Both the position numbers and the translations under genes were made by a program. DNA of 64,000 bases from Rubrivivax gelatinosus (GTDB lineage: Bacteria > Pseudomonadota > Gammaproteobacteria > Burkholderiales > Burkholderiaceae_C), in the NCBI RefSeq assembly GCF_016583785.1, contig NZ_NRRU01000003.1, forward strand, positions 1 through 64,000, given 5' to 3'. Shown one piece after another: positions 54,167-63,133 of this stretch (its first letter is position 1; each line of letters begins with the position of its first letter). The notes under the pieces were generated by a model. That model worked only from the letters and a program-made list of their open reading frames with translations, was not told the DNA's origin and ran no database searches.

Positions 54167-54964
54167 TCAGGCACTCGCGACGCGGTTGCGCCCGGCCGCC
54201 TTGGCCGCGTAGAGCGCCTGATCGGCGCGGCTGATGGTGGCCGAGAAGCCTTCTTCGCCATGGTGTTCGGCCAGGCCGAAGCTCGCCGTCAGCGCCACCC
54301 TCTGCTCGCCGACACGGTCGATCGTGCTGACCGCGTGGCGGATGCGCTCGACGATGACCAGCGCCTGATCCAGCGGCGTCTCGGGCAGCAGCATCAGGAA
54401 CTCCTCGCCGCCCCAGCGTCCGCAGTGGTCGTACTTGCGCAGGCCGGTCTCGACGGCGCGTGCGATCGCCTGCAGCACCAGATCGCCGACCTCGTGCCCG
54501 TGTTCGTCGTTGACGAGCTTGAAGTGGTCGACGTCCATGATGGCGACGGCGAAACCGCGGCCCAGGCGCAGCGTGCGGTCGTTCTCCTCGCGCAGCCGCT
54601 CCATCAGGTAGCGGCGGTTGCCCAGGCCGGTCAGCGAGTCGTGCATCGCCGCGTCGCGCAGCGCCAGGCTCAGCTCGCGCAGACTGTTCTGGTAGCGGTC
54701 GGAGATGCGCACCAGCTTCTCCAGCCGGCGCACCTGCTTGTCGTACTGCTCCACCAGGCTCAGCCGCTGCTCGCGCGCGACGTGGTGGTAGCCGTCGGAG
54801 ATGCGCACCAGGCGCTCGAGGCGCTCGCGCTGGCCCTGGAAGTGGCCCAGCAGCTGCTCCAGCGGCTCACGCAGCGGGCTGTCGCGCTGCGCCGGGTCGG
54901 CCAGCAGCGCCTGGATCGTGGCGACGAGCTCGAGGTCGTCGCCGTAGGTCTTAGGCGGCGCCAT
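54167..54964 (-). CDS. siaD: SiaD-like diguanylate cyclase
   Basis: This 265-residue cytoplasmic GGDEF protein makes cyclic di-GMP. The active site is GGEEF (185-189), and an inhibitory site RKYD (176-179) stands exactly five residues before it. The N-terminal half is a coiled coil with a visible internal duplication: LERLVRISDGYHHVAREQ and LEKLVRISDRYQNSLREL. In Pseudomonas aeruginosa, unphosphorylated SiaC binds the SiaD stalk and switches on the cyclase. The start overlaps siaC by 14 bases. Context decides the name: it is the last gene of a siaABCD set. Confidence 0.9.
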   Translation of the reverse strand: MAPPKTYGDDLELVATIQALLADPAQRDSPLREPLEQLLGHFQGQRERLERLVRISDGYHHVAREQRLSLVEQYDKQVRRLEKLVRISDRYQNSLRELSLALRDAAMHDSLTGLGNRRYLMERLREENDRTLRLGRGFAVAIMDVDHFKLVNDEHGHEVGDLVLQAIARAVETGLRKYDHCGRWGGEEFLMLLPETPLDQALVIVERIRHAVSTIDRVGEQRVALTASFGLAEHHGEEGFSATISRADQALYAAKAAGRNRVASA

Positions 54965-55334
54965 CGGCCAGGATCTCGAACGGGAAGCTGCAGTCTTCCT
55001 TGAACTCGCTGGCGAGGTCGAAGACGCGGTCGTTGCGCGGGTCGTAGTACCACTGCACCTCGAGCGCACGGCCTTTGGCGAAGGCCTCTTCGCAGATGTC
55101 GAAGATGTCCATCATCGCCTTGACCGAGCTGGTGTTCATGTAGACCAGGCGCAGCTCCAGCCGCAGCGGCCGGGTCTCGGTGCCGAGGAAGTCCTCGAGC
55201 CAGCGGATGACATCGCCGAAGAACTCGAAGGAGTTCTCCGGATACGAGTCGCCGCGCATCGCCAGCACGCCCTGCTGCCAGCTCGCCTGGATCTCGGGCG
55301 TCGACTGCCCGCCTTGGATTTGCAGATCGTTCAT
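54951..55334 (-). CDS. siaC: SiaC-like phosphorylation-controlled activator (DUF1987)
   Basis: This 127-residue DUF1987 protein has an anti-sigma-factor-antagonist-like fold. The segment RLVYMNTSSVKAMMDIFDI places a Thr at residue 68, the same number as the phosphorylated Thr of P. aeruginosa SiaC. SiaB phosphorylates and SiaA dephosphorylates that Thr; the unphosphorylated form activates SiaD. SYPENSFEFFGDVIRWLEDFL is a family signature. It lies 17 bases after siaB. Confidence 0.9.
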   Translation of the reverse strand: MNDLQIQGGQSTPEIQASWQQGVLAMRGDSYPENSFEFFGDVIRWLEDFLGTETRPLRLELRLVYMNTSSVKAMMDIFDICEEAFAKGRALEVQWYYDPRNDRVFDLASEFKEDCSFPFEILADGAA

Positions 55335-55351
55335 CGTGCCACCACCGTCGT

Positions 55352-55894
55352 TCAGATCACCGCCCGCAGGCTGAAGAAGGCCCGGCCGTCGCCGGCCGGC
55401 CGCAGGTCGGCGAGCAAGGGCGCCGCCGACTTGCGCGCCACGTCGATCAGCCCCAGCCCGGCCCCCGAGGCCGCGTCGCCGCTGCGCGGCCGGCGCAGCT
55501 GTTCCTTGTAGGCGGCCTTCAGCTGCGCCTTGTCCAGCCCCGCCAGCTCGCGCACACGCTCGAGCAGTGCGCGGCCGTCGTCCTGCTCGACCAGGTTGCC
55601 GGCCTGGACGATGTAGCTGCCGCTGTCGTCGCGCGCGACCACCACCGTCGCCGCGCCGTCGAGCTCGCCGTAGTTGCGGCTGACGGCGTAGTGGCGGATG
55701 TTCTGCGTCAGCTCGATGTAGACGCCGAACACGTCCATCGCCGACGACGGATGCGCGTGGTCGGCCTGCAGGTAGTTCTTCAGCGCGTTGCCGATCTCCT
55801 CGATCAGGCTGCGCGAGATCGGCCCGTTGAAACACAGCAGGATGCGCCCGCGATTGAAGTGCTCTCTCAGACCGAACAAATCGATGGTGTCCAT
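55352..55894 (-). CDS. siaB: SiaB-like protein kinase (DUF6272)
   Basis: This 180-residue GHKL-related kinase is predicted to phosphorylate SiaC. Visible are an N-box-like ELTQNIRHYAVSRNYGE (about 62-78) and a G-box-like SGAGLGLIDVARKS (about 143-156). ISRSLIEEIGNALKNYL is typical of the N-terminal half. It lies 12 bases after siaA and 17 before siaC, in the same order as the P. aeruginosa operon. Confidence 0.88.
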   Translation of the reverse strand: MDTIDLFGLREHFNRGRILLCFNGPISRSLIEEIGNALKNYLQADHAHPSSAMDVFGVYIELTQNIRHYAVSRNYGELDGAATVVVARDDSGSYIVQAGNLVEQDDGRALLERVRELAGLDKAQLKAAYKEQLRRPRSGDAASGAGLGLIDVARKSAAPLLADLRPAGDGRAFFSLRAVI

Positions 55895-55906
55895 GGATGC
55901 TCCGAC

Positions 55907-57898
55907 TCAGTCAAAACGGAACGACAGGATCGTGATGTCGTCGCGCTGGGAACGTTCGCCCTGGTATGCGCGCAGGGCCTGGTCCAGTGCCTCGGCCTGC
56001 TCGCGCAGCGGCTTGCGGGCCACGGTGCGCAGCAGCTCGGCGAAGCGGCCGTTGCCGAAACCGTAACCCAGTTCGCCGCCGGCCTGGTCGAGAAAGCCGT
56101 CGGTGACGAGGTAGTAGGTCCGACCGGGCACGAGCTCGACGCCCTGGTCGGCGTACTCGCCCTGGCGCCGGTCGCCGATGGCGCGGCGGTCGCCCGGGGC
56201 GCTGCCGACGCTGTCGCCGTCGCTCCAGTACAGCGGGATCTTGGCGCCGGCGTAGACCATGCGCCGGTTCTCCAGGTCGACGTAGGCCAGGCCGGCGTCC
56301 ATGTTGGTGGCCAGGGCACGCGGCATCTCGCGGTCTTGCAGCATCGCGCGCACCGCGGCGTCGGTCTGGCGCAGCACCTCGGCCGGCGAGGCGATGCCGG
56401 CCCGGTTCATCGCGTGGTCCAGCGCCGAGCGCGCCAGCATCGTCATCAGCGCACCGGGCACGCCGTGGCCGGCGCAGTCGACGACGCCGATCAGGTAGCG
56501 CGTGCCCTCGGCGCGGAAGACGTAGAAGTCGCCGCCGACGACGTCGCGCGGGCGCCAGAGCACGAAGTGGTGCTCGCCGAGCTGCTGCGTCAGCTGCTGG
56601 CTGGGCAGGATGGCGCGCTGGATCAGGCTGGCGTAGTCGATCGAGTCGCTGATCTTCTGGTGCGCCAGGCGCATGTCGCGGTTGGCCGCTTCCAGCGCTT
56701 CGGTGCGCTGACGCACCTCGGCTTCCAGGTTGCCGGTGTAGGCGCGCACCTTCTCCGCCATCGTCGCGAAGGCGCGGCCAAGGTCGGCGATCTCGTCACG
56801 GCCGTCGACCGGCACGCTGACCTGGAAGTCGCCGTGCGAGATCGCGGTGGCCGACTTGTGCAGCCGGCGCAGCGGCCTGATGACGAGCCGGTTGACCGCC
56901 AGCACGAAGGCGGCGAGCAGCAGCGCCAGCGTGCCGGCAGCCACCGCCGCGGCGGTGTTCAGCCAGTCGCCGTCGACGACATGCGCGGCCTGCAGATCGA
57001 CCGCGGTGACGACGTGCCACTTCAGCTCGGGCACGTAGGACAGCGCGAGCAGCTGGCGGCGCCCGTCCAGCGTCGCCCAGAGCGTGGCCACCTGGCCCGG
57101 GCGCGCGACGGCGGCGTCCATCGCGCCGGCCAGCGCGGCACGTTCGGCCTCGGGCAGCTGGCCGGCAAGCGTCTGCTCGGCGCGCGCGCTGCTGCCGGCC
57201 TGGTTGGTCGAGATCAGGCTCGTGTCGCGGTGCGCCTGGATGGCGCCGTTGCGCGACAGGATGATCGGCGTGACGCCGGCCTCGGCGGTGTTGATGAACT
57301 CGGCCAGGAACTGCCGCAGGTCCAGCGCCGCGCCGGCCACGCCCAGGGTGCGGGCGCGGTCGCGGATCGCGACGTTGAACCAGACCATCGTGACCTGCAG
57401 CGGCACGTCGACGTTGACGTTGATGTTGTAGTCCTCGGGGCGGCGCAGCGTGGCGTAGAACCAGGAGTCGTCCGCCTTGGCCGCATCCAGCGTGTAGCGC
57501 GGCTCGGGGCTGAAGGGCTTGCTCTCGTCGTTGAAGTAGAAGTGGCCGCTGAAGGCGCTGGCGATGAAGTAGGCGTGGTCGCGCAGGTCCAGCCGAAAGG
57601 CCTCGGCCTCGCGCAGCGCCATCGCCTTCTTGGCCGGGTCGCCCTCGTCGAGCAGCCACTGGCGCGTGAGCTGCGAGCTGGCCAGGCGCCGCGCCAGCGC
57701 GAGTTCGCGGTTGAGCAGGCCCAGGACCTGCTCGCGCTTCAACTGCGTGTAGTTGCGCGCAAAAGCCTCGCCGAAGTGGTCGCGCACGCCCTCCACGAGC
57801 TGCCAGCCCAACAGCCCGGCCGGCAGCAGCGCCAGCAGGCAGGCTGCGATGAGGGCGAATATCGATTTGGCGCGCAGGCCGAAACCCCAGGTGGCCAT
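55907..57898 (-). CDS. siaA: SiaA-like membrane PP2C phosphatase with HAMP domain
   Basis: This is an inner-membrane sensor phosphatase. With the ATG at 57898 it has 663 residues, the same as I recall for P. aeruginosa SiaA. The layout is: first membrane helix (about 11-33), large periplasmic domain with dCache-like features, second helix (about 320-343), HAMP (about 344-396), short coiled coil, then a SpoIIE/PP2C catalytic domain. The metal ligands are visible: RPRDVVGGDFYVFR, VVDCAGHGVPGALMTM, LVTDGFLDQ, and QRDDITILSF at the end. It would dephosphorylate SiaC in response to an outside signal. It is the first gene of siaABCD. Confidence 0.92.
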   Translation of the reverse strand: MATWGFGLRAKSIFALIAACLLALLPAGLLGWQLVEGVRDHFGEAFARNYTQLKREQVLGLLNRELALARRLASSQLTRQWLLDEGDPAKKAMALREAEAFRLDLRDHAYFIASAFSGHFYFNDESKPFSPEPRYTLDAAKADDSWFYATLRRPEDYNINVNVDVPLQVTMVWFNVAIRDRARTLGVAGAALDLRQFLAEFINTAEAGVTPIILSRNGAIQAHRDTSLISTNQAGSSARAEQTLAGQLPEAERAALAGAMDAAVARPGQVATLWATLDGRRQLLALSYVPELKWHVVTAVDLQAAHVVDGDWLNTAAAVAAGTLALLLAAFVLAVNRLVIRPLRRLHKSATAISHGDFQVSVPVDGRDEIADLGRAFATMAEKVRAYTGNLEAEVRQRTEALEAANRDMRLAHQKISDSIDYASLIQRAILPSQQLTQQLGEHHFVLWRPRDVVGGDFYVFRAEGTRYLIGVVDCAGHGVPGALMTMLARSALDHAMNRAGIASPAEVLRQTDAAVRAMLQDREMPRALATNMDAGLAYVDLENRRMVYAGAKIPLYWSDGDSVGSAPGDRRAIGDRRQGEYADQGVELVPGRTYYLVTDGFLDQAGGELGYGFGNGRFAELLRTVARKPLREQAEALDQALRAYQGERSQRDDITILSFRFD

Positions 57899-58167: not shown

Positions 58168-60594
58168 TCAGAAGCGCGTTTCCAGCGTCGCGAAGACGTT
58201 GCGGCCCTTGCCCACGCGGGTCGTCGTCTCGACGTCGCGCGCATTCAGGTAGGAGGCGTCGAACAGGTTGTCGACACCGACGCGCACGCTCAGGTCGCGG
58301 CCGAAGAAGCCGCTGCCCTGGGCGTTGGGACGCCAGCGGGCGTAAACGTTGGTGATGGTGTAGTCGTCGCGCACGTTCCAGTAGGTCTGGCCGCCGCTGA
58401 CGAAGGAGGCGGGGTTCGGCGAGGGCTTGAACCAGTGGGTGACGCTGCCGCCCAGGCGCAGGCCCGGCGTCGCGTTGAAGAAGGCGCCGATGTTCAGCTT
58501 GTCGGCGAAGGCCTGGGGCGTGTCCTGGTCGTTCGCCTCGTTCTTCTGGCTCAGCGTCGAGTAGGCCAGCGAGAGACCCCCGAGCGCATGCTCGTAGCTG
58601 GCCTGCCATTCGACGCCGTGGCGTTTCACGCGGTCGACGTTGCGGTACATGCCATAGGGCGAGCCCTCGGGCGAGGCCTCGTCCGGGCGCACGAGCGCCA
58701 GCGCGATCATGTCCTGGATGCGGCCGTCGAAGTACATCAGCTTGGTGTCGAAGCTGTCGGACGCGGCGAACACGCCCTTCTTCTCGTAGGAGAAGCCCAG
58801 CTCGTACTCGCGGATGGTCTCCGGCTTCAGGTTGGGATTGGGCAGGTACCAGTAATGCGGGTTCAGCGGGCCTTCGGACGAGGTCTCGTGCGGCGTCGGC
58901 GCGCGGAAGGCTTCGGACCAGTTGGCCAGCATGTGCAGGCCGGTCGCGACCTGCAGGCTCGCACCCAGGCGCGGCGAGAAATGGTCGCCGTCGTAGCTGC
59001 CTTCGTTGGCGTCGACGCGGCGGTCGAAGCGGTCGTAGCGGCCACTGAGCTGGGTCACCAGCCTGCCGTCCCAGAAGGTCGACTCCAGGTGGCCGTAGGC
59101 GCCGGAGTCCTTGTAGGTGTTGGGCAGCGAGCCGAAGTCGCTGTAGACGCCGTTGAACAGGTAGGTCGCGTCCTCCTTGCGCTTCTCGTAGTCCACGCCG
59201 GCGACGAAGCGGTGCAGCACCGAGCCGGTCTCGAAGTGGGCCTCGTTGCTCAGGCGCATGCCGTAGCGCTTGTCGGCGTTTTCGTAGTCCAGGTCGTTCG
59301 TGGCGCCGGTGTTGATGTCGACGTAGGCGTAGCCGCGGTCGTAGCTGGCACGCGAGTGATAGACGGTGCCGGTGACGTTCAGCCAGGCCCGCACGGGGTC
59401 GATGTAGCGGTATTTGGCGACGATGTCGCGCTGCTGCAGCTCACCGATCACCGGCCCCGTCGTCGTCGAGTAGTTGGTGTGGTAGAGCGTCTGCCAGGTC
59501 GTCTCGTTGTCGATCTTGTAGTCGTAGTACGACAGCGACAAGCGGTGACCGGGCGCGAGCTTGATGCCGCCTTGCAGGTACAGCACGCGCAGGTCCTCGT
59601 CGTTGTCGACGGTGTCGACGCCCTTGCCCTGGGAGTCGACGCTGAACTGCCTCGACAGTTCCAGGTCGCCGGCCTGGCCCTTCTTGGCGTAGGCCAGCAG
59701 CTCGTAAGGCTTGTCCTCGGGCGCGTAGGCCGCCGCCACGTAGCCCTCGCGGTAGTTGTTCGACTCGTAGCGCGTCTTGACGGCGAACCCGGCGTCCTGG
59801 CCGGTCGGCACGAAGTCCTTGGCGTCCTTGGTCGTCATCGAGACGACGCCGCCGATCGCGCCGCCGCCGTTCTGCACCGACGAAGCGCCCTTGACCACCT
59901 CGACCTGCTTGAGCAGGTCGTTGTCGGAGCGGAAGCTCGAGATGTGGTTGGAATACAGCGACGCCGAGCGCCGCACACCGTCCTGCAGCACGATGACCCG
60001 ATCCTCGGACTGATACCCGAAGCCGCGGATGTTGAACTGCTCGCCGGTCAGGCGGCCGCTGTCGCCGCCGGTGGTGACGCCGGGCAGCTCGCTCATCGCG
60101 GAAATGACGCTGCCGTGGTTCTCCAGCGCCTCGCGGCCGAGCAGGGAAACCGAGCCCGGGTAGACCCGGGAGTCGGTCTCCAGGCTCGTGCCGACGACGG
60201 TGATGGTGGGCAAGCTGCCGACCTGCCGCGGTGCGGCACCCGGCTGCAATGTCCAGCGGCCGTCGGCGCCGCGCGCGGCGGACAGGCCGGTGCCCTGCAG
60301 CAGGCCGGTCAGCGCCGCCTCGGCGCCGTATTCACCGCTCACGCCCGCGGACCGACGGCCCGCGAGCAGCGCAGGAGCTGCTTCGACCGTGATGCCGCTG
60401 ACCACCTTGAACTGCTCGAGCGCTGCGGCCAGCGGCCCCGCATCGATCCGGTACTGGCGGACGGCCTCGACCGCCGCGACGGCGCCTTCCTGGGCATTTG
60501 CCGCGGTGGCCAGCGTCATGGCCGACAGCGCGGCGAAGACCGCGCGCGCCACCACCCGCTGGGCCGGCTGACGGGCCTTCTGAAGTCTGCTCAT
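58168..60594 (-). CDS. TonB-dependent receptor with STN domain, probably for heme or iron
   Basis: This 808-residue outer-membrane receptor has a signal peptide (ends ATAANAQ). An N-terminal STN (secretin/TonB short) domain follows (about 48-98, YRIDAGPLAAALEQFKVVSG, then VSGEYGAEAALTGLLQGTGL). The plug (ITVVGTSLETD TonB-box region; FNIRGFGYQSEDRVIVLQDG; VEVVKGASSVQNGGGAIGGV) and a barrel ending GKGRNVFATLETRF complete it. The plug resembles hemoglobin/heme-type receptors. STN domains usually talk to a FecR-like anti-sigma factor, but no fecI or fecR gene is nearby. A Fur-box-like palindrome lies about 295 bases upstream. Confidence 0.9.
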   Translation of the reverse strand: MSRLQKARQPAQRVVARAVFAALSAMTLATAANAQEGAVAAVEAVRQYRIDAGPLAAALEQFKVVSGITVEAAPALLAGRRSAGVSGEYGAEAALTGLLQGTGLSAARGADGRWTLQPGAAPRQVGSLPTITVVGTSLETDSRVYPGSVSLLGREALENHGSVISAMSELPGVTTGGDSGRLTGEQFNIRGFGYQSEDRVIVLQDGVRRSASLYSNHISSFRSDNDLLKQVEVVKGASSVQNGGGAIGGVVSMTTKDAKDFVPTGQDAGFAVKTRYESNNYREGYVAAAYAPEDKPYELLAYAKKGQAGDLELSRQFSVDSQGKGVDTVDNDEDLRVLYLQGGIKLAPGHRLSLSYYDYKIDNETTWQTLYHTNYSTTTGPVIGELQQRDIVAKYRYIDPVRAWLNVTGTVYHSRASYDRGYAYVDINTGATNDLDYENADKRYGMRLSNEAHFETGSVLHRFVAGVDYEKRKEDATYLFNGVYSDFGSLPNTYKDSGAYGHLESTFWDGRLVTQLSGRYDRFDRRVDANEGSYDGDHFSPRLGASLQVATGLHMLANWSEAFRAPTPHETSSEGPLNPHYWYLPNPNLKPETIREYELGFSYEKKGVFAASDSFDTKLMYFDGRIQDMIALALVRPDEASPEGSPYGMYRNVDRVKRHGVEWQASYEHALGGLSLAYSTLSQKNEANDQDTPQAFADKLNIGAFFNATPGLRLGGSVTHWFKPSPNPASFVSGGQTYWNVRDDYTITNVYARWRPNAQGSGFFGRDLSVRVGVDNLFDASYLNARDVETTTRVGKGRNVFATLETRF

Positions 60595-61174: not shown

Positions 61175-63133
61175 TCACTTCAGGTGCTTGGCGAAGAACT
61201 TCTCCATCGCGCCGTAGAACTCGAACTTGTTCTCTTCGTTGGCAAAGCCGTGGCCTTCGTTGTCCTTGACGAGGTACTCGACCTCGACACCGCGCTTCTT
61301 CAGCGCCTCGACGATCTGGTCGCTCTCGGCCTTGTTGACGCGCGGGTCGCGTGCACCCTGAGCCACCAGCAGCGGCGTCTTGATGCGGTCGACGTGGAAC
61401 ACCGGCGAGGTCGCGGTCAGGCGTTCCTTGTCCTGGGCATCGTCCGGGTTGCCGACCATCACGTACATCTGCTGGCGCCACGGCTCCCAGTACGGCGGGA
61501 TCGTCTTCATGAAGGTGAAGAGGTTGCTCACCCCCACGTAGTCGACCGCCGCCGCATACAGGTCGGGCGTGAAGGCGACGCCCGCCAGCGTCGCGTAGCC
61601 GCCGTAGCTGCCGCCGTACAGGCCGATGCGTTTCGGGTCGGCGATGCCCTGCGCCACCAGCCACTTGGCGCCGTCGCTGATGTCGTCCTGCATCTTCAGG
61701 CCCCACTGGCCGAAGCTCGCTTCCCAGAACTGGCGGCCGAAACCGGTGGAGCCGCGGAAGTTCATCTGCAGCACGCAGTAGCCGCGGTTGGCCAGGAACT
61801 GGACCTCGGGGTTGAAGCCCCAGCTGTCGCGCGCCCACGGGCCGCCGTGCGGGTTGACGACGCAGGGCAGGTTCTTGGCCTCGCGGCCGGCCGGCAGCGT
61901 CAGGTAGGCCGGGATCTGCAGGCCGTCGCGCGCGGTGTAGCTCACCGGCTTCATCTCGGCCATCTGCTCGGACTTGATCCAGGGCGCGGCGTCGGCGAGC
62001 TTGGTCAGCTTGCCGCTGCGCACGTCGAACAGGTGGCGCGCACCCAGCGTGCGGTCGCTCCAGTTGACGGCAATGTAGCGCTGCTCGTCCAGCGTCCAGG
62101 CCGACAGGTCGACCTGTTCACCCGGGAAACGCTGCTGCAGCTTGTCGAAAGCGGCCTGCATCGCCGGGTCGAAGAAATGCTTGCCGTGTTTGTCGGTCTC
62201 GTAGCTGGCCCACAGCACTTTCTTCTGCACGCGCGACCAGTGCGCACCCTCGACGTCGACCGCCGGGTGGGCGTAGACCAGTTGCTCGGCGTCGGGTTTG
62301 GCCGGGTCGATCAGCACCAGCGCGCTCTTGTCGCGGCCGCGGTTGCTGACGGCGTAGAACAGGCGGTTGTCGCCGTCGAAGAACAGCGGCTGCACGCCGG
62401 TGCGGAAGTCGGTCGTGAACAGCGGCTTGAAGTCGTCGCTGTCGCCGTCGCGGTAGAGCACGGTGTTGTTGACGCCGTCGCTGGCGATGGCCACGCGGAT
62501 GCGGCCGCGGTGGTCGGTGACCCAGTTGACGATGTTGCCCGGGTTCGTCGCGACGACGGTCTCGGCACCGGTGCGCACGTTCAGGCGCACGACGTCGAAG
62601 GCCTTGCGGTCGCGGCGGTTGTGCATCACGAGCACGTGCTGCGGGTCTTCGGGCAGGTTCTCGATCAGTTCGGCACGCACGCCCTCCCAGGGCGTCAGGT
62701 CGCGCACCTTGCCGCTGGCGGCGTCGGCGGCGACGACGTGGAAGTTCTCGTCACCACCGAAGTCCTTCATGAAGAGCACGGTGTCGTCGCCCTTCCACGC
62801 GTACATGCGGATGTCGCGTGCGCTCTCGCGCGTCAGCTGGCGCGGCGCGCCGACGACACGGCCATCGACGAGCTTCTGCACGAAGACGTTGCGCCGCGGC
62901 GTCGCGCCGGCTTCAGCCGGCGCCGGCTGCAGGAAGGACACCCAGCGGCCCTTGTCGCTGATGTTGTAGCCCGAGCGCGCGGGGCTGCGGAAGAAGTCGC
63001 GCAGCGGCAGCTCGGGCGGCACGGCGGCACTGGCCGCGGGGGCCGACGCGGCGGTCTGGGCCGACGCGGGTGCGCCGATGAAAGGCAGCAGCAGCGCCGC
63101 CACGGCCACCGGAGCGAGAAGAGGCTTGGTCAT
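61175..63133 (-). CDS. Secreted S9 family (prolyl oligopeptidase-like) peptidase
   Basis: This 652-residue serine peptidase has a signal peptide ([20 protein letters not shown], then APASAQT). An N-terminal beta-propeller (about 60-390) covers a C-terminal alpha/beta-hydrolase domain. The catalytic triad is visible: Ser in [13 protein letters not shown], Asp in [11 protein letters not shown] and His in [11 protein letters not shown]. It is close to dipeptidyl-peptidase/acylaminoacyl-peptidase subfamily S9C. It probably trims peptides in the periplasm or outside the cell. Confidence 0.93.

Follow-up and report, generated by a model that had tools for sequence, protein, structure and literature searches.

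A stretch of 64,000 nucleotides from Rubrivivax gelatinosus (contig NZ_NRRU01000003.1, positions 1 to 64,000 of the forward strand), referred to here as the window, carries a siaABCD operon. Sequence comparison, a structural model and the conservation of interface residues indicate, with a probability of about 0.93, that this operon is a complete and intact system of the Pseudomonas aeruginosa type, which would control cyclic diguanylate (c-di-GMP) synthesis as that system does. The match extends to gene order, sequence, predicted fold and interface conservation, and the operon itself is a well-conserved addition to the known Sia system. A second finding concerns the helical stalk that carries the SiaC-docking motifs of the diguanylate cyclase SiaD. 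A one-copy form of the stalk, which appears to be unreported in the open-licence literature (titles and the starts of abstracts), is present on other enzymes encoded beside siaC. The stalk is probably a portable SiaC-docking element across Pseudomonadota, in which case SiaABC would be an exchangeable Thr/Ser-phosphorylation input cassette for unrelated output enzymes.

The operon and the docking stalk of SiaD

As the preliminary description stated, siaA, siaB, siaC and siaD form a complete operon. They lie on the minus strand, running in that order from 57898 down to 54167. Gaps of 12 nucleotides (siaA/siaB) and 17 nucleotides (siaB/siaC), together with a 14-nucleotide overlap of siaC and siaD, suggest a single transcript. 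The genes and the features discussed below are as follows.

siaA, 55907..57898, minus strand: 663 amino acids, membrane PP2C-type phosphatase (weak dCache sensor, HAMP, SpoIIE/PP2C); NF038263, 1037 bits, cut-off 700
siaB, 55352..55894, minus strand: 180 amino acids, SiaC kinase (DUF6272), matching 6kko chain A; NF038264, 293 bits, cut-off 225
siaC, 54951..55334, minus strand: 127 amino acids, STAS-like phospho-switch protein (PF09345, DUF1987); NF038265, 203 bits, cut-off 150
Thr68 codon of siaC, 55131..55133, minus strand: phosphosite of the P. aeruginosa protein, context YMNTSSVK
siaD, 54167..54964, minus strand: 265 amino acids, diguanylate cyclase with an N-terminal helical stalk; NF038266, 358 bits, cut-off 290
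SiaD stalk, 54644..54871, minus strand: single helix in the AlphaFold2 model, residues 32-107
Distal SiaC-docking motif, LVRISD copy 1, 54794..54811, minus strand: residues 52-57, within the A2 profile match 54794-54946
Proximal SiaC-docking motif, LVRISD copy 2, 54698..54715, minus strand: residues 84-89, within the A2 profile match 54647-54781
RKYD, the RxxD I-site of SiaD, 54428..54439, minus strand: residues 176-179, aligned with P. aeruginosa R170...D173
GGEEF active-site motif of SiaD, 54398..54412, minus strand: residues 185-189

Because all four proteins pass their NCBIfam equivalog cut-offs, a chance match is excluded. Pfam identifies SiaB as DUF6272, SiaC as PF09345 and SiaD as a GGDEF protein, and places PF07228 and PF00672 of SiaA above cut-off. 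The best sequence matches of all four are the solved Sia structures of P. aeruginosa: residues 386-663 of SiaA match the phosphatase-domain structure 6k4e (phmmer, E 2e-114), SiaB matches 6kko chain A over its full length (E 1e-76), SiaC matches the sequence of 6kko/6kkp/7e6g (E 3e-49), and almost all of SiaD matches 7e6g_A (E 1e-78), which comes from the crystal of P. aeruginosa SiaC with SiaD (7E6G). The gene order is the same as in P. aeruginosa. The P. aeruginosa system (7E6G, 6KKO/6KKP, 6K4E/6K4F; PMC8457831 and PMC7647112) is also alike in Thr68, in two docking motifs 32 residues apart, in the I-site and in GGEEF, and differs in host and gene neighbours. The 663-residue SiaA, Thr68 of SiaC and the I-site of SiaD were all present as the preliminary description had stated, and the equivalog cut-offs, the structure matches and the retained interface residues uphold the orthology it had claimed. 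HsbA-HsbD of P. aeruginosa and BgrV-BgrR of Sinorhizobium meliloti resemble the Sia pair in that a STAS-like partner regulates a GGDEF enzyme, but they are different proteins, as described in PMC8457831.

The LVRISD sequence occurs twice in the SiaD stalk, beginning at residues 52 and 84. The P. aeruginosa motifs that contact SiaC are S50/D51/G52/Q54 and S82/D83/R84/Q86 (PMC8457831), and the two copies align with these motifs in 7E6G. The proposal that the repeat is the SiaC dock is therefore well founded, since both copies map on contact motifs that are backed by mutants (PMC8457831). As a newly found docking element the repeat was rejected, because the crystal 7E6G and the mutants settled SiaC docking in 2021 (PMC8457831). 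The AlphaFold2 model of SiaD, built from an alignment with 24 relatives (mean predicted local distance difference test 93.3; predicted template modelling score 0.66), had 7e6g_B as its top PDB match (Z 27.8, 259 residues aligned, root-mean-square deviation 5.4, 52% identity). The next matches, GGDEF proteins with Z of about 27 that count as tied with 7e6g_B, cover the cyclase part or no more than part of the stalk.

The residues at the interface are largely conserved. Thirteen of the 14 SiaC residues listed as contacting SiaD (PMC8457831) are identical, the remaining one being Ile71, which is Val71 in the window. On the SiaD side, 10 of the 13 proximal contacts in the same source are identical, with Val78 replaced by Leu84, Met88 by Ser94 and Asp91 by Glu97; Arg90 and Gln92 correspond to P. 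aeruginosa Arg84 and Gln86. The distal motif retains S56, D57 and G58. All 78 SiaD proteins of named genomes have two [IVLM][SA]D motifs at a distance of exactly 32 residues. The proximal equivalent of Gln86 is Gln in all 78, and the distal equivalent varies (Gln 44, His 24, Tyr 9, Gly 1), which agrees with the stronger effect of the proximal-motif mutant in P. aeruginosa (PMC8457831). RKYD (176) sits five residues ahead of GGEEF (185).

We infer all biochemical steps and the biofilm output in R. gelatinosus from orthology. SiaB would phosphorylate Thr68 of SiaC, and SiaA, the membrane phosphatase, would remove the phosphate when a signal reaches its sensor part. Unphosphorylated SiaC would then clamp two pairs of sites on the SiaD stalk dimer, formed by the two LVRISD copies, and by uniting two GGEEF domains would start c-di-GMP synthesis, with feedback on SiaD expected through the RKYD I-site.

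Several observations weigh against an intact system of this kind. The sensor part of SiaA is weakly recognized (dCache_1, 27.6 bits against a cut-off of 45), so SiaA of the window may sense a signal different from that of P. aeruginosa SiaA. The distal motif has His60 in place of P. aeruginosa Gln54. A SiaC-family gene was found in just 2/24 other genomes of the genus (one sample), and in one of these two congeners (G019) SiaC is divergent, DKAS replacing NTSS; the Sia system is thus patchy within the genus and dispensable to it. The patchy presence, His60 and the divergent congener could all be explained if the operon had decayed or been repurposed, with its frames intact, its contacts changed and SiaD no longer under SiaC. 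Such decay is nevertheless very improbable. The four frames are intact and exceed the equivalog cut-offs, the interface residues are conserved, and His occupies the distal position in 24/78 relatives. In addition, Rubrivivax benzoatilyticus JA2 and R. gelatinosus DSM 1709 (loci L056 and L057) have siaABCD with a SiaC 80% identical to that of the window, adjoined by the same GntR-type regulator and GntP transporter.

The stalk on other enzymes beside siaC

At some SiaC loci of the order the GGDEF protein is shorter and has only one xSDR motif, and at others a GGDEF gene is lacking. One of the order's genomes (G269, L046:7462-8517) has the arrangement siaB-siaC-[nucleotidyl cyclase]-siaA, and the cyclase carries a stalk resembling the SiaC dock, with NRIIRISDRNE in its N-terminal helix. 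The enzyme belongs to PF00211, which we take to be class III. This arrangement was the earliest sign of a possible role of SiaC in controlling a different second messenger.

The tally was extended to the phylum, counting stalk enzymes within 3 kb of siaC on either strand at 79 SiaC loci (83 matches less the window itself and the fragments G390, G460 and G496). A stalk enzyme was found near 59 of the 79: a GAF-HD-GYP protein at 23, a one-motif GGDEF protein at 16, a nucleotidyl cyclase at 9, a two-motif SiaD at 7 and a histidine kinase at 4. Pfam confirmed the domain names in a subset of the neighbours, and the others were classed by similarity to that subset. What is counted is genomes or loci, which are not independent events. 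Going by family labels, the HD-GYP versions span 9 families, the nucleotidyl cyclases 4 in addition to that of L046, and the kinases 4 in addition to Azospirillum. The GAF-HD-GYP proteins that adjoin siaC (L204, L210, L246 and others) have about 670-715 amino acids and the same N-terminal stalk; their Pfam match is to PF13487, and L246 visibly has the HD and GYP residues. HD-GYP is the c-di-GMP-removing kind of enzyme, here beside a switch that makes c-di-GMP in P. aeruginosa.

Plasmids gave a similar picture. Six of the 19 plasmid records with a SiaC match were examined, and a stalk enzyme follows siaC in all five from Pseudomonadota (Azospirillum, Methylobacterium, Variovorax, Paraburkholderia and Tistrella), none of which was used in the stalk profile. 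The sixth, a Bacteroidota plasmid (Bernardetia), had a SiaC match and no stalk enzyme was seen; a plasmid search with the HD-GYP stalk gave no match. On plasmid pAB510c of Azospirillum sp. B510 (NC_013857.1, L318), genes for a histidine kinase and a GGDEF protein come after siaA-siaB-siaC. The stalks of these two proteins are closely similar, as though kinase or cyclase had acquired a copy of the other's.

Other kinds of neighbour were also observed. Chemoreceptor (MCP) genes with no recognizable stalk lie beside siaB or siaC at L036:4333-6366 and L045:4846-6996 and are a possible further kind of partner. At L040:4898-6037 (G045), a gene for a 379-amino-acid HD-domain protein (PF13487) adjoins siaA-siaC-siaB and was not matched by the stalk profile.

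The stalks of the different enzymes are related in sequence. In pairwise hhalign comparisons, whose E-values involve no database, the GGDEF profile aligned with that of the nucleotidyl cyclases at 2.5e-18 and with that of the HD-GYP proteins at 4.2e-17, and the latter two aligned at 3.4e-23. Alignments of the other-enzyme stalks with the SiaD stalk were weaker (7.9e-9, 1.1e-7 and 4e-7; 8.3e-5 for two kinases). A profile named A2 was made from 36 one-motif stalks of SiaC neighbours in 33 genomes, with no two-motif SiaD included. In the phylum, A2 matched 59/398 genomes, 58 of them with SiaC, corresponding to 58/67 SiaC genomes as opposed to 1/331 SiaC-less genomes (G399). In the order it matched 32/300 genomes, 31 with SiaC; the one match among 251 SiaC-less genomes (G221) starts at base 61 of its contig, where a preceding gene would be cut off. 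These counts lean towards A2 because contributing genomes were among those searched; with those removed, 30/39 SiaC genomes of the phylum and 23/41 of the order were positive. The searches scored at most 14 (phylum) or 18 (order) candidates per genome, such that weak matches may have been missed in either group. In the genome of the window, the only A2 matches among the 14 and 18 of 55 candidates scored were the two LVRISD copies, and of the 33 open reading frames with a GGDEF match found in 30 of its 41 GGDEF loci, the stalk profiles matched SiaD only.

Not every stalk is encoded next to siaC. No SiaC match lies within 1 kb of 27/84 stalk matches, and in genomes of the phylum sample such as G436 (C257/C53/C170) and G387 (C66/C4) stalk proteins lie on contigs with no SiaC match, stalk matches outnumbering SiaC matches in these two. 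The distance of these proteins from siaC, together with the tandem kinase and cyclase of Azospirillum sp. B510, suggests that one SiaC may have several stalk targets.

The phosphosite and the stalk residue that faces it are associated. In all 80 loci retained from named genomes, SiaC contains NTSS. Thr occupies position 68 in 87/87 SiaC proteins from named and SiaD-type loci, whereas 88 of 89 others have Ser; the one left over is divergent and has DKAS, as in G019. This split led to the rejection of Thr68 as a phosphosite common to all SiaC proteins. Azospirillum sp. B510 is an exception to the split, as its SiaC has Thr together with a one-motif kinase and cyclase. Among 149 pairs of SiaC and stalk, all 87 pairs with Thr68 have Gln as the stalk residue facing position 68 (P. 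aeruginosa residue 86); in the 62 pairs with Ser68 this residue is Glu in 39, Gln in 18, Ala in 3 and Asp in 2. Strict co-variation was therefore rejected, the pattern being only partial and confounded by descent. The association is suggestive only, and shared descent accounts for part of it.

Two explanations that dispense with docking have to be considered. The LVRISD repeat of SiaD could reflect mere coiled-coil periodicity with no specific dock, as the repeat lies within one long helix and coiled coils repeat. This is scarcely credible given that the repeat maps on both SiaC-contact motifs of a crystal with supporting mutants, that the spacing is invariant in all 78 SiaD proteins, and that A2, which derives from the stalks of other enzymes, is nearly confined to SiaC genomes. 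A stronger competitor, though still unlikely, is that the stalk outside SiaD is an old dimerization helix, one that accompanies siaC through shared history without being a binding site of SiaC. SiaC binding to the stalk, with a change in activity, was demonstrated for P. aeruginosa SiaD (PMC8457831), whereas no SiaC structure or binding assay with an HD-GYP protein, a nucleotidyl cyclase or a histidine kinase was found in the titles and abstract starts searched. Further points tell against a shared docking stalk: 20 of the 79 SiaC loci lack a stalk protein within 3 kb, 9/67 SiaC genomes of the phylum and 18/49 of the order have no A2 match, the Gln86 position is often Glu in stalk proteins other than SiaD, and the MCP genes of two loci and the HD-GYP gene of a third have no recognizable stalk. 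Yet the stalk is nearly absent from SiaC-less genomes while occurring on four kinds of enzyme, most non-SiaD stalk proteins retain the contact motif's SD core, and SiaC position 68 is associated with the stalk residue, with the reservation about descent given above. These findings favour a portable docking stalk.

Since one stalk is found with several catalytic domains and is almost exclusive to SiaC genomes, SiaABC would be an exchangeable input switch. Its outputs may include diguanylate cyclases with one or two motifs, GAF-HD-GYP proteins, class III nucleotidyl cyclases and histidine kinases. If so, the same switch would make or remove c-di-GMP, make cyclic AMP or cyclic GMP, or feed a two-component relay, and a recognizable docking stalk would allow SiaC-controlled enzymes, including those of other second messengers, to be predicted from sequence. 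In PMC8457831, modulation of adjacent proteins was proposed for DUF1987 proteins as a whole, and the parts of that paper covered do not name how targets elsewhere are recognized. In Campylobacterota, links of partner switches to cyclic-nucleotide enzymes and chemoreceptors have been described, with no mention of a stalk in the parts of PMC9239204 covered. Nothing in the titles and abstract starts searched described SiaC together with a different output enzyme.

Distribution and gene neighbourhood

The host is indeed not Pseudomonas, but the rarity of the operon outside Pseudomonas that the preliminary description implied did not hold: Rubrivivax, Halomonas, Zobellella and Thauera also carry it. 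When named genomes were scanned with a SiaC alignment, 315 loci were confirmed and the 80 nearest were retained; these come from Rubrivivax, Propionivibrio, Halomonas, Billgrantia, Zobellella, Oceanimonas, Thauera, Giesbergeria and others. None of the 80 is titled Pseudomonas, two being from Halopseudomonas and Stutzerimonas, and the idea of an operon unusual outside Pseudomonas was rejected. Within these loci siaB is present in 80/80, siaA in 77/80 and a GGDEF gene after siaC in 78/80. Five loci are incomplete; in three (L078, L094 and L123) siaC lies beside a contig end, and L126 was counted as incomplete with its GGDEF frame present but outside the distance rule. The siaABCD operon is widespread in Beta- and Gammaproteobacteria. 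PF09345 is present in 4/41 relatives (the window's own genome included), 49/300 genomes of the order and 67/398 of the phylum, and the Azospirillum plasmid gene is already annotated as siaC.

The operon lies between tetronate genes and an iron receptor, as previously described. Downstream are an FCD/GntR-type regulator and, above their cut-offs, a GntP-family transporter, L-threonate dehydrogenase and 3-oxo-tetronate kinase. Upstream of siaA is a TonB-dependent protein of the haem/haemoglobin-receptor family (58168-60594) that scores 322.6 bits, just above the cut-off of 316.85. The haem receptor is kept upstream of siaA in R. benzoatilyticus JA2. No haem-receptor match was found in the flank examined of R. 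gelatinosus DSM 1709, where a relative of the S9-peptidase-family protein of the window (61175-63133) occupies the receptor's place. The difference amounts to a gain or loss of the receptor next to the operon.

Two further loci depart from the usual form. In G118:C14 (L049), additional partial SiaC matches lie in tandem behind siaC, and siaB is split, which may reflect a duplication or an assembly fault. In the congener G019 (L051/L004), the divergent siaC adjoins siaB- and siaA-like genes, and the phosphosite has apparently been lost.

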